Positions 8,868 through 22,363 of a DNA stretch of 27,860 bases are shown here, in pieces (position 1 is the stretch's first letter; every line of letters starts with the position of its first letter). The notes below the pieces were generated by a model. That model worked only from the letters and a program-made list of their open reading frames with translations, did not search any database and was not told the origin of the DNA. The stretch lies in the IMG/VR virus record IMGVR_UViG_3300009176_000067, positions 1 to 27,860 of that record. One strand, written 5' to 3'. A program made the position numbers and the translations under genes. Source of the stretch: a virus.

Positions 8868-9158
8868 GTGCCCCAGCGTAGCACCCTCCGGCTCGTGAAG
8901 GAAATCCCCCTTCAACAGATCGCCGCCGCCGCCGTCGCCGAGCACCGGCGCAAAGTGGCGCTCGTTGACGCGCGCGAGACCCTGCGCTGCATCGCCGTCG
9001 AGCACGGGCACTTCCTCGGCTGGTGGCGCGTCGAGAGCGAGGCGACCGCGCTCGTGCAGTGCCGCATCTGCGGCGAAGGCGCCGTGCTGCGGCTTGACAC
9101 CGCGGCGACGCGCCTCACGGACGGCTTCGGCCAGGCGTGCCCGGGAACATTCCAATGA
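8868..9158 (+). CDS. Hypothetical protein with CxxC motif, 96 aa
   Basis: Starts at GTG 8868 with AAGGGAC about eight bases upstream. A basic N-terminus is followed by a helical region (QQIAAAAVAEHRRKVALVDARETL) and a compact C-terminal half with 'HGHFLGWWRVES', 'VQCRICGEGAVLRLD' and a last Cys in 'FGQACPGTF', which together could bind zinc. It ends in an ATGA overlap. It is the first gene after the hairpin, so its expression may depend on read-through. Family not recognised. Confidence 0.6.
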   Translation: MPQRSTLRLVKEIPLQQIAAAAVAEHRRKVALVDARETLRCIAVEHGHFLGWWRVESEATALVQCRICGEGAVLRLDTAATRLTDGFGQACPGTFQ

Positions 9159-9448
9159 CTTCCGGCGCCGACCGCTTCAGCGTGCTCGACGTGATCGTGG
9201 TGCAGACGTACTTCGTGCGCCGTCGGCCGACCGACGATCCCTTCTTCGAGGTGCAGGTCGCGCGGGACGCCCAGGCGAAGACGCCGCGGTCGGCGTTCCT
9301 GACACGCGACGAGGCGCTCTACGAGACGGCGCTCGCGCTCGAGGCCTCCGAGGAGCGGGTCGATCTCGCGTGGAAGCCCGGGCGCAGGCAGAACGGACAG
9401 GTCGCGCAGCTGCTCGTCGCGGTGCGCCCGCATCGGGAGGCCGCGTGA
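9155..9448 (+). CDS. Hypothetical protein, 97 aa
   Basis: ATG 9155 overlaps the upstream stop; the stop overlaps the GTG of the methyltransferase. The sequence suggests a small beta-alpha fold: strands 'FSVLDVIVVQTYFVRRRP' and 'FFEVQVARDA', then a helix 'TRDEALYETALALEAS' and a final basic segment 'WKPGRRQNGQVAQLLVAV'. There is no cysteine cluster and no catalytic motif. Its coupling to the methyltransferase gene suggests a link in expression, not necessarily in function. Confidence 0.55.
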   Translation: MTSGADRFSVLDVIVVQTYFVRRRPTDDPFFEVQVARDAQAKTPRSAFLTRDEALYETALALEASEERVDLAWKPGRRQNGQVAQLLVAVRPHREAA

Positions 9449-10452
9449 AGACAGGACTCCGTTTGGCGGATCCGGTGCTTGTGAAGCTCGAACAGGCGCG
9501 CAGCGCGCTCTCGCAGGCGAAGACGATACAAGGCGTCAAACGGATCGCCGATCTCGCGGCGGCGGCGAAGGTCTACGCCCGCCAGCAGCAGCTCGGGCAG
9601 GAATCGATCGACTTCGCGCACGCCGTCCGCATCGAAGCCCTGCGCCGTCTGGGCGAACTGCTCAAGGTGACGCCGAAGAACTCTGGCGTCGCGACGCGCG
9701 ACAAGCGCGGAATGACTCGCGGTTCCTCCGGAGTACCGCGAGTCGCAGAGCCGCCGACGCTCGCCGACGTCGGCCTTACGAAGAAGCAATCGTCGATCGC
9801 GCAGAAGCTCGCGGAGCTCCCGAAGAAGCAGTTCGAGGACGTCCGCCTCGGCGTCGCCTCGATTGCGCAGGCGATCCGCGAAGTCGAGCACGCGAAACGG
9901 CCGACGACGCCACTGCCCGTCACCGACACGTACCGGGTGATCTACGCCGATCCGCCCTGGTCGTACGGCAACAGCGGCGTGATCAACGACTCCGACAACT
10001 ACGGCCGCGCTGCGCGTCATTACCCGTCGCTGTCGATCGCAGAGCTCTGCGCGCTGCCGGTAAAGGCGCTCGCCGATCCCGATGCGGTGCTCTTCCTGTG
10101 GGTGACGTCGCCATTGCTCGCCGAGTGCTTCGCCGTCGTCGCCGCCTGGGGCTTCACCTATAAGAGTTCGTTCGTCTGGGACAAGGTCCGGCACAATTTC
10201 GGCCACTACAACAGCGTCCGGCACGAGCTACTGCTGGTCTGCACGCGCGGGTCATGCACGCCGGATGTCCGGACGCTGCACGACTCGGTGCAGACGATCG
10301 AGCGGTCGGACGTGCATAGCGAGAAGCCCGAGCACTTCCGCTCGATCATCGATGATCTCTACCCGCGCGGTGCCCGAATCGAGCTGTTCGCGCGCTGTGC
10401 GGCGCCGGCACCGTGGGAAACGTGGGGGAACGAACTGCGAGCGCGAGCATGA
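9445..10452 (+). CDS. MT-A70 family adenine-N6 DNA methyltransferase
   Basis: A 335-residue enzyme starting at GTG 9445 (GTGA overlap). The C-terminal MT-A70 domain begins at about residue 160: 'YRVIYADPPWSYG' holds the DPPW catalytic motif (169-172). Then come 'HYPSLSIAELCALPV', 'VLFLWVTSPLLAECFAV', 'WGFTYKSSFVWDK' and the 'SEKPEHF' and 'LYPRGARIELFAR' blocks that complete the SAM-binding fold. The first 150 residues form a helical domain (EALRRLGELLK, LADVGLTKKQSSIAQKL) like ParB- or Sak-type DNA-binding extensions found in phage MT-A70 proteins. It would methylate adenine in phage DNA, plausibly to escape restriction. No partner restriction nuclease is obvious, although the next gene may be a nuclease. 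Confidence 0.88.
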   Translation: MKTGLRLADPVLVKLEQARSALSQAKTIQGVKRIADLAAAAKVYARQQQLGQESIDFAHAVRIEALRRLGELLKVTPKNSGVATRDKRGMTRGSSGVPRVAEPPTLADVGLTKKQSSIAQKLAELPKKQFEDVRLGVASIAQAIREVEHAKRPTTPLPVTDTYRVIYADPPWSYGNSGVINDSDNYGRAARHYPSLSIAELCALPVKALADPDAVLFLWVTSPLLAECFAVVAAWGFTYKSSFVWDKVRHNFGHYNSVRHELLLVCTRGSCTPDVRTLHDSVQTIERSDVHSEKPEHFRSIIDDLYPRGARIELFARCAAPAPWETWGNELRARA

Positions 10453-12414: not shown

Positions 12415-13416
12415 ATGCCACCCACGGCCTCGCTCGCGCCCGCCGACATCGCCGCCCGCATCCATGCCGCCTGGGGGCAGCACTACGCCCGCCAGGCGCG
12501 CCCGTCGTCGCCGCACGCCTACGTCTACGCCTCGTCGTGGCGGGCGTGCGAGCGGCGCATGGTTTACGAACTCACGATCCCCGATCAGCAGCCGCCCTTC
12601 CCGCCGGAAGTGCTCGCGAAGTTCCGGCGCGGCGACGACCGCGAGCGCGAGCTGCTGATCGACCTCGCGCGCGTCGGCCGCGAGACCGAGCCCGAATTCA
12701 AGGTCATCGGCCAGCAGGAACGCTTCACGCTGAAGGATCACAAGGGGCGCGTCGCGATCGTCGGGAAGGTCGATGCGCGCCTCGAGATGCAGGGCGCGCG
12801 GCCGCCCCTCGAGGTGAAGGCCTGGTCGCCGATGATGACCGACCGCGTCGAGCGGTTCAGCGACCTCTTCGACAACCCGTGGACCGTGAGCGGCGCGCAC
12901 CAGCTCCTCGCGTATCTCTTCGCCGCCGGCGAGCCCTACGGCTTCCTGCTGCTCGATCGCTCCGGCCTGCCGAAGCTCCTCGAGGTCGAGCTCGAGCCGC
13001 ACCTCGATCGCATGGAGGACTTCCTGGCGCGCGCCGAGCGCGTGCTCGATCACGTCGCCGCCGGCACCGAGCCGGACTTCCTCGACGACCCGGCCTCGTG
13101 CCGGCGCTGCCCGTGGTTCGGCGGCATCTGCCAGCCGCCCCTGAGCGCCGCCGGCGCGACGCTGCTGAACGATCCCGACCTCGAGGCCGCCCTCGAGCGC
13201 CGCGAAGCCCTGAAGGCCGCCGCGGACGAATTCGACGACATCGACAAGCGCGTCAAGCAGCAGCTGCGCGGCGTCGAGCAGGGCATCGCCGGCCGCTTCG
13301 CGATCAGCGGCAAGTGGGGCAAGCAATCGAAGGTCGAGCTGCCCGCCGACCTGAAAGCCAAGTACACGAAGACCGACCCGAAGGGGCGGTTCACGCTGGA
13401 GATCACAAAGCTATGA
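12415..13416 (+). CDS. Cas4/RecB-like PD-(D/E)XK exonuclease with Fe-S cysteines
   Basis: A 333-residue protein starting at ATG 12415. The nuclease core is visible as 'IVGKVDARLE' (Asp120) and 'PLEVKAWSP' (Glu133-x-Lys135), with 'SGAHQLLAYLF' as the motif IV-like helix after it. Four cysteines have Cas4/AddB spacing for an iron-sulphur cluster: Cys45, then C229-x2-C232-x6-C239. The last 80 residues form a helical arm and a small beta domain ending the protein. It would resect double-stranded ends and hand 3' tails to the annealing protein encoded just upstream, supporting phage recombination and concatemer formation. Confidence 0.82.
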   Translation: MPPTASLAPADIAARIHAAWGQHYARQARPSSPHAYVYASSWRACERRMVYELTIPDQQPPFPPEVLAKFRRGDDRERELLIDLARVGRETEPEFKVIGQQERFTLKDHKGRVAIVGKVDARLEMQGARPPLEVKAWSPMMTDRVERFSDLFDNPWTVSGAHQLLAYLFAAGEPYGFLLLDRSGLPKLLEVELEPHLDRMEDFLARAERVLDHVAAGTEPDFLDDPASCRRCPWFGGICQPPLSAAGATLLNDPDLEAALERREALKAAADEFDDIDKRVKQQLRGVEQGIAGRFAISGKWGKQSKVELPADLKAKYTKTDPKGRFTLEITKL

Positions 13417-13771: not shown

Positions 13772-13785
13772 CGATCAGTTTTGCG

Positions 13786-14709
13786 ATGGCAGACGACCGG
13801 TTATTTCACAAACGCCTCGGACATTCGGAAAAAGTGAACGCGCTTTCTGCAGAAGAGGAGCTCGTTTGGCGAACATACGTGCAGGAAGCCGACGATTTCG
13901 GCGTGATGTTGATGTCCGGAATTGAGATTCAGGGCGGCCACGATCGCTTCCGAAACATGCGGCCGAAGGTCGTGCAGCAAATGCTCGACCGTGTCCTGAA
14001 GGTGGGTCTCGTGCGCGCGTTCGAACACCAGAACCGCGTCTACTGCTACCAGCCAGACTGGCAGACCTATCAAAAGGTCCGCTACGCCCTCGGCACGATT
14101 AACCCACGCATTCCAGCGGAGTTACTCCGCCAGTGCGATCGGCCGACGCAGTGGCTGCACACCCTCTGGCCTGGCGCCGCCGGGCGTGGCCGGAAGCTCT
14201 CCAGTTGGACGCCGCCTGATGACTGGACGCCGCCGGAGTGGACCGACCGTTCCGGAAACGTTCCGTCAACGACGGCTGAGCGTGTTCCGTCAACGTTGCC
14301 GGAACGTTCCGGAAATGTTCCGCCCCTCGCGCGACACGCGCGCGCGCGATCAGGGGGAGGGGATAGGGATAGGGAGATCTTGGGGGGTGTGGGGGGAAAC
14401 GGCTCGGCCGCGACCGGCGCCGTCGATGATCTCACCGAGCAGGAAGCCCGGGCCGGACGCTTTGTCGAGCGGTACGCCGCGCTGTTCTACCAGTTCCGCC
14501 ACGGGGCGCGCTACGTCAGCAAGCCGGCGCTCGACTACCAGGAGGCGCTGCAGCTCGTGGCGACCTGGGATGACGCGCGGCTCGACACGCTCGTCGAGGC
14601 ATTCCTCACCACCGACGAGCCCTTCTGCCGCAACGGCAGCGGCACCATCGCCCAGTTTCGATCGCGTGCGTCGTGGTGCGATGCGCGCCTACGCGAGAGC
14701 GGCTTATGA
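13786..14709 (+). CDS. Replication initiator with N-terminal winged helix (O-like)
   Basis: The start is ATG 13786 (MADDRLFHKRLGHSEK); upstream sequence in this frame belongs to the preceding genes. Residues 1-110 look like the winged-helix domain of phage replication proteins (ALSAEEELVWRTYVQEADDFG, VVQQMLDRVLKVGLVRAF, VYCYQPDWQTYQ). A disordered linker at about residues 140-205 encodes two near-copies of 'RSGNVPS/P' and a Gly-rich stretch, and at DNA level it carries iterons and G-runs. A C-terminal helical domain ('FVERYAALFYQFRHGARYVSKPALDYQEALQL') may contact the host helicase or loader. The plan - DNA-binding domain, internal origin, partner domain in 307 residues - matches lambda O, although sequence homology is not claimed. 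Confidence 0.7.
   Translation: MADDRLFHKRLGHSEKVNALSAEEELVWRTYVQEADDFGVMLMSGIEIQGGHDRFRNMRPKVVQQMLDRVLKVGLVRAFEHQNRVYCYQPDWQTYQKVRYALGTINPRIPAELLRQCDRPTQWLHTLWPGAAGRGRKLSSWTPPDDWTPPEWTDRSGNVPSTTAERVPSTLPERSGNVPPLARHARARSGGGDRDREILGGVGGNGSAATGAVDDLTEQEARAGRFVERYAALFYQFRHGARYVSKPALDYQEALQLVATWDDARLDTLVEAFLTTDEPFCRNGSGTIAQFRSRASWCDARLRESGL
14248..14322 (+). repeat. ori: Iteron-like repeats, predicted replication origin
   Basis: Two 18-bp repeats, CGTTCCGGAAACGTTCCG (14248-14265) and CGTTCCGGAAATGTTCCG (14305-14322), differ at one base. Between and across them, GTTCCGTCAACG occurs at 14260-14271 and 14284-14295, and a perfect palindrome CCGGAACGTTCCGG spans 14299-14312. The hexamer GTTCCG begins at 14249, 14260, 14284, 14306 and 14317, spacings of 11, 24, 22 and 11 bases, close to whole helical turns. 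Located in the linker of the initiator gene, as in lambda. Confidence 0.65.
14353..14396 (+). other. G-run tract with G-quadruplex potential
   Basis: Six runs of G (lengths 5, 4, 3, 3, 6, 6) at 14353-57, 14359-62, 14366-68, 14372-74, 14382-87 and 14391-96 are separated by one to seven bases and satisfy the usual four-run rule. An alternating CG tract (14329-14349, with a short ACA interruption) lies just before it. Directly downstream of the iterons, on the same strand; could help strand opening or block the fork. Confidence 0.6.
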
Positions 14710-17029: not shown

Positions 17030-17042
17030 GGGGGGGGGGGGG
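17030..17042 (+). repeat. 13-base homopolymeric G tract
   Basis: An uninterrupted run of 13 G lies between the stop at 17021-17023 and the ATG at 17054. An ATG at 17020 opens a frame that enters the run; with 11 or 14 G it would fuse in frame to the gene at 17054. Such tracts are slippage-prone in replication and also error-prone in sequencing. Confidence 0.85.
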
Positions 17043-20067: not shown

Positions 20068-20568
20068 ATGCCACGAGGGGGCCACGGGAAAAGCGGACGT
20101 CCCGCACACGACGCTCAGACACGGAAACTGCGCGCCGCTGAGACGCGAGAACGTCACCGGAGAAAGGGCGACGTCGGTCAGCCGATGCTTGTCTGCGCCG
20201 CGCCACCGGGCTGCACGCGCCTCGAGCGCGCGTACTGGAACTACTATGCGCCGCTGCTCGCTGCAGAACGGCGACTGACCATGAAGGCCCGCGACACGCT
20301 GGCGAAGTACTGCACCGCCCTGGCGGTTGTGACCGGACTGCGGCGGTCCCTGGCCTCGAGACGGCCGAAGGAGATCGCCGTTCGCGACAAGACCCGGAAG
20401 GAGCTCCGGCAATGGGTCCTGGCCGCACGGCTCTACGAGAACGACCTGATCCTCAACCCGGCGAGCGCCATCCGCGCACCGAAGGAAGACGTCCCGCCAC
20501 CGATCCCGCCTGGCGCGCCGGTCAGCGACTTCGATACCGAATTCGATGCCGATGACACCGTCAACTGA
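20068..20568 (+). CDS. terS: Terminase small subunit, P27-like
   Basis: A 166-residue protein; ATG 20068 has TGGAGG and TGAGGA upstream. A basic N-terminus ('MPRGGHGKSGRPAHDAQTRKLRAAETRERH') is followed by 'AYWNYYAPLLAAERRLTMKARDTLAKYCTALAVVTGLRR', the helical core of P27-type small terminases, and a disordered acidic tail. It would bind the phage packaging site and recruit the large subunit, whose gene overlaps by 23 bases. The 91-base gap upstream (19977-20067) is a plausible place for the packaging site, but no diagnostic repeat was found. Confidence 0.8.
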   Translation: MPRGGHGKSGRPAHDAQTRKLRAAETRERHRRKGDVGQPMLVCAAPPGCTRLERAYWNYYAPLLAAERRLTMKARDTLAKYCTALAVVTGLRRSLASRRPKEIAVRDKTRKELRQWVLAARLYENDLILNPASAIRAPKEDVPPPIPPGAPVSDFDTEFDADDTVN

Positions 20569-22363
20569 CGCCCTCGCCTCGCCGGCGCCACCTCGCGTGG
20601 ATGTCCTCACGAACCCGGTCGATCTCTACGCGCATCAGGTCGTCTCCGGCGAGATTCCCGCGGGCAAGTATCACCGGCTGGCGTGCGCCCGCCATCTTCG
20701 CGATCGGGGGCGCGAAGGCACACCCGAGTTTCCTTATCGCTTCATCTGGGAAGAACGGGACGCCGCCGGCAAGCTCGTGGGCTGCGCCGTGCGGTTCCTC
20801 CAGTTCGCCAGCCGGTTTCGACACTACAAGGGCAAGCGGAGCTGGGCGGGCCAGTTCTTCCGCCCAAGTCCATTCCAGGTGTTCCGGTTGGGCTCGCTCT
20901 TCGGCTGGCGGCATGTCCGAACGGGGTTACGTCGCGTGACGACCAGCTACAACGAGATTCCCAGAAAGAATGGGAAGTCCTTCGAGGCGGGCATCGTGAC
21001 GCTCTACGTCACGTTCTTCGAAGGGACGCCAGGTGCTGAGGGCTACGTGATCGCCACGAAGCGCGAGCAGGCGAACATCGTCTTCGAGATCGCCCGGCAG
21101 CTCGTCATCCGCAATCGCGTCGGATCGCGCTTGCTCTCACGCCTCGTCGTCGGGAAATACCACATTCACGACGAGACCACCGGGTCGATGCTCAAGCCGC
21201 TCGGCGCGGACGCGGATTCGACCGACGGCCTGAACCCGAGCATGACGACGGCCGACGAGCTCCACGCCTACAAAGACCGTGGACTGCTCGATGTCATGGA
21301 GTCGGCCACCGGCGCGCGCGACAACCCGCTGATGTTTCAGATCACGACGGCCGGCGATGACATCGTCAGCGTCTGCGGCGATCAGCACGACTACGCGTGC
21401 AAGATTCTCGATCAGGTCCTCGAGGACGAGGCGACGGACGCGTTCTTCTGCTGCATCGCGCACGCGGATCCCGAAGATGACTGGCTCGACGAGCGCACCT
21501 GGCGGAAAGCGAACCCGCACTATGGGCTTTCGGTTGATCCGGTCGAGGTGCGAAAGATGGCGCTGAAGGCGAAGAATATGCCGAGCGCCGCCGCGGAGTT
21601 TCAGCAGAAGATCCTCAACCTCTGGGTGAACACGGGCCAGCCGTGGCTCTCCCTCGAGGGCTGGCGCCGCGGCCAGTCGCACTGGGACTGGCGTGAACTC
21701 CGCGGGCGGGCGTGTTGGATCGGCGTCGACATGTCCTCGAAGATCGACCTCACGGCCGTGGTACTCGTCTTTCCCCCGGTGGCCCCGCGTGGTCCGTGGC
21801 GGCTGATCGTCTGGTGCTTGACGCCGGAGGACACGTTGCTCGATCGCGCGCACCGTGATCGGGCGCCCTATCAGCGGTGGACGGTCCCGGACGTCTCGAT
21901 CGACGAGGCGGGATCCGGGCTCCGCACGAACCCTGGCAACCGGATCGATCAGGGCGCCGTCCGGGCCTGGCTGCGCGTGGCGAAGACGCTGTTCGACGTG
22001 CAGCAGGTGGGGATCGACCCGTGGAACGCGGGCAACCTCGTCCAGGATCTCACCGAGGACGGGCACCAGGTGATCGAGATCCCGCAGACGCTGCAGCAGA
22101 TGTCGGCGCCCTCGAAGGACTTCGAGGCCGACGTCCTCGATGGCCTGATCGACGCCGGTGGGAATGAACTTATGCGGTGGTGCGTGAGCAATACCGTCGT
22201 GCAGCGGGACGGGAAAGACAACATCTACCCGGTGAAGAAGAAAAGCCGGGGGCGGATCGATCCGGTGATCGCGACGCTGATGGCGCGCAAGCTCGCGACG
22301 ATGAGTCAGGAAAAGCCTGCGGCCTACCAGCTGCTGGTGCTCGGGGGAGGCCCGGCGTCATGA
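20546..22363 (+). CDS. terL: Terminase large subunit
   Basis: A 605-residue packaging motor, ATG 20546 (or 20552). The ATPase domain shows Walker A 'IPRKNGKS' (residues 138-145) with the Arg-Lys-Asn-Gly-Lys form of HK97-type terminases, Walker B 'MTTADELHAY' (Asp237-Glu238), and the coupling region 'MFQITTAGDD'. The nuclease domain begins near residue 390 with 'WIGVDMSSKIDLTAVV' (first metal-binding Asp), includes 'VGIDPWNAG', and ends near 'GRIDPVIATLMA' (last Asp). It translocates DNA into the prohead and cuts it. Full length and apparently intact. Confidence 0.93.
   Translation: MPMTPSTDALASPAPPRVDVLTNPVDLYAHQVVSGEIPAGKYHRLACARHLRDRGREGTPEFPYRFIWEERDAAGKLVGCAVRFLQFASRFRHYKGKRSWAGQFFRPSPFQVFRLGSLFGWRHVRTGLRRVTTSYNEIPRKNGKSFEAGIVTLYVTFFEGTPGAEGYVIATKREQANIVFEIARQLVIRNRVGSRLLSRLVVGKYHIHDETTGSMLKPLGADADSTDGLNPSMTTADELHAYKDRGLLDVMESATGARDNPLMFQITTAGDDIVSVCGDQHDYACKILDQVLEDEATDAFFCCIAHADPEDDWLDERTWRKANPHYGLSVDPVEVRKMALKAKNMPSAAAEFQQKILNLWVNTGQPWLSLEGWRRGQSHWDWRELRGRACWIGVDMSSKIDLTAVVLVFPPVAPRGPWRLIVWCLTPEDTLLDRAHRDRAPYQRWTVPDVSIDEAGSGLRTNPGNRIDQGAVRAWLRVAKTLFDVQQVGIDPWNAGNLVQDLTEDGHQVIEIPQTLQQMSAPSKDFEADVLDGLIDAGGNELMRWCVSNTVVQRDGKDNIYPVKKKSRGRIDPVIATLMARKLATMSQEKPAAYQLLVLGGGPAS

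Follow-up and report, generated by a model that had tools for sequence, protein, structure and literature searches.

Our findings suggest that positions 14248 to ~14401 of the window, the 27,860-nt stretch of viral DNA analyzed here, very probably represent a phage replication origin, lambda-like and iteron-based, lying within the part of the phage's initiator gene that codes for the protein's linker. An origin had originally been predicted from the repeats in this gene, and that interpretation is supported: the computed evidence comprises the repeats, selection at the DNA level, a conserved place between two protein domains, sequence turnover among relatives and a purine-rich tract, from which we infer origin status. 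The origin-in-initiator layout is already known from lambda and SPP1; the initiator family and the GC-rich character of the opening tract appear to make this a new variant. The features are collected in Table 1.

Table 1. Features of the initiator gene and of the proposed origin (positions in the window)
Feature	Position	Strand	Description and basis
Replication initiator gene	13786-14709	+	307 aa; ORF and weak PHROG matches to phage replication initiators
N-terminal domain (residues 1-110), putative winged-helix DNA-binding	13786-14115	+	PHROG match region; helices in low-confidence model
Iteron 1	14248-14260	+	CGTTCCGGAAACG, 13/13 to CGTTCCGKMAACG
Iteron 2	14259-14271	+	CGTTCCGTCAACG, 13/13 to CGTTCCGKMAACG
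Iteron 3	14283-14295	+	TGTTCCGTCAACG, 12/13 to CGTTCCGKMAACG
Iteron 4, inverted	14294-14306	-	CGTTCCGGCAACG, 13/13 to CGTTCCGKMAACG
14-bp perfect palindrome	14299-14312	.	CCGGAACGTTCCGG; junction of inverted iteron 4 and direct iteron 5
Iteron 5	14305-14317	+	CGTTCCGGAAATG, 12/13 to CGTTCCGKMAACG
Half iteron 6	14316-14322	+	TGTTCCG; GTTCCG at 14317, right half without match
CG-alternating tract encoding ARHARAR (minor feature)	14327-14349	.	Sequence; similar tract behind iterons in L004 and L012
Purine-asymmetric GC-rich tract, putative unwinding element	14350-14401	+	Purine maximum; G-quadruplex motif at 14353-14374
C-terminal domain (residues 211-307), presumed helicase/host replisome recruitment	14416-14706	+	Helical in low-confidence model; L048 domain 54% identical

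The repeat array

The five copies of GTTCCG described in the original prediction are all present, at 14249, 14260, 14284, 14306 and 14317 (spacings of 11, 24, 22 and 11), and every copy lies inside the initiator gene. The pair of near-identical 18-bp repeats was likewise recovered (14248-14265 and 14305-14322, 17/18 identical) as part of a 28-bp direct repeat with 82% identity, and so was the 14-bp palindrome. Beyond these five copies, CGGAAC at 14300 constitutes a sixth, inverted one. A better repeat unit is the near-palindromic 13-mer CGTTCCGKMAACG, with CGTT and AACG as its outer arms; the array then has five full sites, four direct and one inverted, plus a half site, and is located just after the N-terminal domain. 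Elsewhere in the 27.9-kb window, a single site matches this 13-mer at 12 or more positions, an isolated 12/13 copy with the sequence of iteron 3 at 662-674, far from the initiator, which may be either a further binding site or a chance occurrence.

The repeats had also been described as phased by helical turns, a claim that holds in part. With a period of 11 bp the copies are clustered (R 0.85), a degree of phasing reached by 3% of random placements when the period is chosen freely, and with one of 10.5 bp they are not (R 0.36); the 24-bp step displaces the second cluster by ~65 degrees at the 11-bp period and by 103 degrees at 10.5. Strict helical phasing, being unsupported at 10.5 bp, was dropped.

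A signal at the DNA level

Synonymous recoding of residues 153-181 with phage codon usage reached five GTTCCG copies in 0/20,000 sequences. This motif was chosen post hoc, a flaw from which two motif-free statistics are exempt, with the choice of region still post hoc: the count of the most frequent 6-mer was attained in 0/20,000 cases by recoding and in 7/20,000 by codon permutation within the gene, and the number of out-of-frame 6-mer pairs in 5/20,000 and 1/20,000, respectively. Since the core CGTTCCG, on either strand, is present in all three reading frames of the linker, and given the recoding tests, the RSGNVPS protein repeat is a by-product of the DNA, just as predicted. The repeats are confirmed as real rather than a product of chance, and as a DNA-level signal.

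A comparison across genes was based on the number of 7-mer repeat pairs per 90 nt, evaluated against synonymous permutation, with lambda O, whose iterons are annotated in its record, as the positive control. The initiator scored 24 pairs, its relative L004 28 and lambda O 25 (0/300 in each case); lambda P and the DnaC/ParB-type neighbors were not significant, and two genes of the window, at 12415 and RusA, gave 5/300 and 1/300 at much lower scores of 10. These near-equal values for the initiator and O, together with the location of the repeats between the N- and C-terminal domains, support the anticipated likeness to the lambda oriL-within-O layout. The original prediction saw no obvious sequence relation between the protein itself and O, and none was found here: hhalign assigns the pair a probability of 0.5%, and the window protein has no O-like PHROG match.

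The initiator and its relatives

All PHROG matches of the window protein are to replication initiation proteins, and they are weak and N-terminal only. The whole protein matched phrog_1408 (replication initiation protein) over residues 10-110 at E 2e-4 and phrog_2149 at E 0.018, and its N-terminal part, searched alone, gave a weak phrog_1408-type initiator match at E 5e-5. The putative winged helix of the N-terminal domain is taken from family membership; the AlphaFold model (pLDDT 36), too poor for confirming a winged helix or for a fold search, contains helices in the N-terminal part and a helical C-terminal domain, and the domain borders were set by the profile matches together with this low-confidence model. 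The C-terminal domain, which presumably recruits a helicase or the host replisome, matched no PHROG or Pfam model. Among the annotated phages searched there was no relative of the whole initiator or of its C-terminal domain; a search for relatives of the repeat DNA found none, the solved structures offered no useful match to the initiator, and a genome-collection search with the alignment of the pair returned no match. Literature searches, limited to an open-access library, turned up neither this initiator type nor CG-alternating phage origins.

In the collections searched, the initiator has only two close relatives. One (L003) belongs to the same virus, with 2 mismatches in 10.9 kb, and the other (L004) is 47% identical over residues 1-203. 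The L004 linker reads RNGSGPVADPFRNGSGP, with CGGAACGGGTCCGGACC twice, an iteron that differs from that of the window, and it carries, at a comparable junction, a perfect palindrome of 24 bp that contains CGTTCCGGAACG, which is the window's core in palindromic form. CGTTCCG occurs there three times (216/20,000 by synonymous permutation), in another frame and encoding other residues, and the two linker proteins align poorly; the core therefore survives in L004, whereas the linker protein does not. This is the opposite of relatives that keep the linker protein without the repeats, which the original prediction had named as evidence against itself.

A more distant phage, L048, has the C-terminal domain alone in common with the initiator (54%), joined to another N-terminal domain, and is classified as a replication initiator by PHROG (phrog_2447, E 7e-19; phrog_3926, E 2e-16). 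Its linker contains GAAGTTC/GAACTTC repeats from residue 108 onward (0/200), unrelated to those of the window. The window phage, L004 and L048 carry three different iterons at one position. A scan of viral contigs for CGTTCCGGAANCGTTCC gave 24 loci, mostly due to chance, two of which (L012 and L030) fall in genes with linker-type repeats of their own; L030 has the PHROG class helicase loader/initiator, and L012 has no PHROG match.

The tracts behind the sites

Across the whole window, purine content peaks in a 40-mer and a 52-mer that both start at 14348, immediately behind the sites, and the purine content of codons 14350-14403 was matched in 3/20,000 synonymous resamplings, a bias beyond that of the amino acids. 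The tract is ~65% GC (0.67 for the 60-mer at 14350), and no AT-rich element adjoins the iterons; the lowest-GC 60-mer in the vicinity lies at 13774, right where the gene begins. The G-quadruplex motif within the tract is by itself no evidence, because 9% of synonymous recodings produce one. Since neither L004 nor L048 has a purine maximum behind its repeats, the purine tract is not universal among the nearest relatives. The (CG)n tract of the initiator gene was dropped as a selected element, as 1993/20,000 synonymous resamplings reach it.

Proposed mechanism and comparison with known systems

Under the proposed mechanism, the N-terminal domain of the initiator would bind the five full near-palindromic sites and the half site, probably as dimers and in cis, beside its own gene. 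The bound initiator would fold the DNA into an O-some-like complex, and the resulting torsion could open the adjoining purine-asymmetric tract; the C-terminal domain would then recruit the host helicase, leaving host enzymes to replicate the genome.

Lambda offers the closest parallel in layout, with near-palindromic iterons in the linker-coding part of O, between the DNA-binding and C-terminal domains, and directly downstream an opening tract that is strand-asymmetric in purines (PMC5043065). By our computation, the purine maximum of the lambda locus lies at its iteron end, as that of the window lies behind the sites. However, O (phrog_277 and relatives) shows no relation to the window initiator by hhalign or PHROG, its sites are 18 bp long at a spacing of 20-24 compared with 13-bp sites at 11-24 bp here, one of them inverted, and its tract is AT-rich, at ~27% GC. 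Lambda also has the adjacent helicase-loader gene P, whereas no P-like loader was recognized among the proteins scanned here. The oriL of SPP1 lies within gene 38, where direct repeats are found inside an origin-binding protein gene (PMC6316719), an arrangement shared with the window; its AT-rich unwinding element, loader gp39, helicase gp40 and second origin, oriR, have no recognized counterpart here. Among protein families, phrog_1408, phrog_2149 and phrog_2447 are the only ones matching the window protein or its C-terminal relative. At iteron plasmid origins (Rep-type), the initiator binds tandem iterons beside an opening tract (PMC5043065). The same adjacency is proposed for the window. 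In plasmids, the iterons are usually located outside rep, whereas those described here are inside the initiator gene.

Alternative explanations

The sites could instead form an operator, bound by the initiator itself or by a different DNA-binding protein of the phage, that blocks transcription as a form of autoregulation, with no origin involved. Repetition and a near-palindromic form are typical features of operator sites, and the extra site at 662 would suit such a role; however, unrelated initiator families have repeats of their own at the same inter-domain place, lambda O gives the same signal and is a proven origin, and a purine-asymmetric tract lies behind the sites. We regard a purely regulatory role as unlikely, although the operator and origin roles are compatible rather than mutually exclusive. 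It is very unlikely that the array is a protein-level RSGNVPS repeat, or the result of slippage or duplication in an unconstrained linker, devoid of any function as DNA. Linkers do tolerate duplications, and both 18-bp copies encode RSGNVP, but the spacings of 11 and 22 break the frame, the motif occurs in three frames and once inverted, the synonymous tests reject this explanation, a relative retains the core as DNA although its frame and the encoded residues differ, and genes neighboring initiators mostly lack a cluster (2/68, see below).

An RNA hairpin in the initiator transcript, acting as an attenuator or in translational control, would account for the inverted repeats, and the 91-nt segment does fold better as RNA than its shuffles (-38.7 versus -29.6, z -2.9). 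The advantage is equally present when the segment is folded as DNA (z -3.2), because near-palindromic sites in both orientations force folding; moreover, there is no Rfam match, direct copies outnumber inverted ones, and L004 and L048 have different repeats at the same place, all of which makes this explanation highly improbable. Repeats also occur at packaging and recombination sites, and the window does contain terminase genes, yet these are 6 kb away (20068-22360), whereas pac and cos sites of tailed phages usually lie near the small terminase gene. With the recurrence in the initiators of other families favoring replication, a pac/cos or recombination site is scarcely credible, and a replication origin remains our preferred reading.

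The layout in other initiator families

Across viral contigs, a scan for (CG)7 provided a sample of 81 tracts picked by the tract itself, of which 18 (~3 expected) lie no more than 120 bp from a repeat cluster significant at the 2% level. Seven of them fall in linkers of proteins mostly classified by PHROG as replication initiators, primosomal proteins or helicase loaders. In L051, L093, L097, L105, L113, L120 and L121, which represent several unrelated families, (CG)7 tracts encoding RARAR stand directly behind the initiator linker repeats; such tracts are possible Z-DNA-forming origin elements. Another class (L061, L068, L077, L080 and L086) has (CG)7-11 tracts with short inverted and direct repeats on both sides, e.g., GTGTCC, GTATCG, CGTTAC and GGTGGAACGG, and no ORF >250 aa across them; it looks like a different, possibly non-coding type of origin.

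Because the (CG)7 sample had been chosen by tract, the family of L097, which has no evident relation to the window protein, was fetched by its N-terminal domain only, yielding 71 distinct full genes. A repeat cluster that beats at least 99/100 synonymous permutations is present in 40/71 of these genes, compared with 2/68 neighboring ORFs, and starts at residues 105-160 in 37 of the 40; the members are akin to one another, so these counts do not represent independent events. In 33/71 genes (5.5 expected), the 40-mer richest in purines at the locus falls in the linker. The codon-level purine excess is modest (12/71 at p<=0.02, versus 9/71 in the N-terminal control), and the purine-rich linkers are in part an effect of amino-acid composition. 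By hand count, (CG)4+ runs occur at residues 135-186 in 9 genes of this family, versus ~1 expected from the flanks. The linker residues QKPEARSQ recur in many members (e.g., L172, L173, L176 and L187); judging from these residues, the underlying DNA could be a tandem repeat with a 7-nt unit such as CAGAAGC, which passes through every frame in turn.

Among annotated phages with L030-like initiators, most have repeats followed by a purine tract, in the same order. The repeat test was significant for ST974-OXA48phi18.2, vB_EalM-137 and Geobacillus virus E2 (2/300), and not significant for phi12.4, Fraca, A3926.3 and PhiR5_2, whose tandem QEQEQ linkers raise the background.

The layout thus recurs in sampled unrelated initiator families with different site sequences, in the window without the AT-rich melting segment of lambda. 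We tentatively propose, with slightly less confidence than doubt, that an origin in the linker is the default for phage winged-helix initiators rather than a peculiarity of lambda: each family would have its own iterons and a purine-asymmetric, sometimes CG-alternating, tract at the same place, position and polarity being conserved despite turnover of iteron sequence and frame, and the origins of GC-rich phages would open at purine-asymmetric rather than AT-rich DNA. If this is true, the origins of many uncultivated temperate phages could be read from the initiator gene, through codon-level repeats behind the N-terminal domain. Homologous pairs of initiators and iterons that diverged together would be useful for studying the co-evolution of initiators and their sites, and there would be a way of testing whether an opening tract needs strand asymmetry rather than AT-richness.

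Genomic surroundings

The gene order (integrase, methyltransferase, Cas4-type exonuclease, initiator, RusA, then terminase, head and portal) is that of a temperate tailed phage, with integrase, Cas4-type exonuclease and RusA indicating an early region around the initiator; the next genes encode a small zinc-finger-like protein and RusA. The GC-skew check suggested in the original prediction showed no turning point at 14.3 kb in the window or in a near-identical 34-kb record; the record is a fragment. No helicase, primase, polymerase or loader was recognized among the proteins scanned in the window and in the 14.4 kb by which the near-identical record G001 extends further upstream, so the phage probably uses the host replisome, a missing match being weak evidence. 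The early region also encodes an MT-A70-type DNA methyltransferase (8965-10449). An unusual run of 13 G at 17030-17042 is possibly a point of slippage or assembly.
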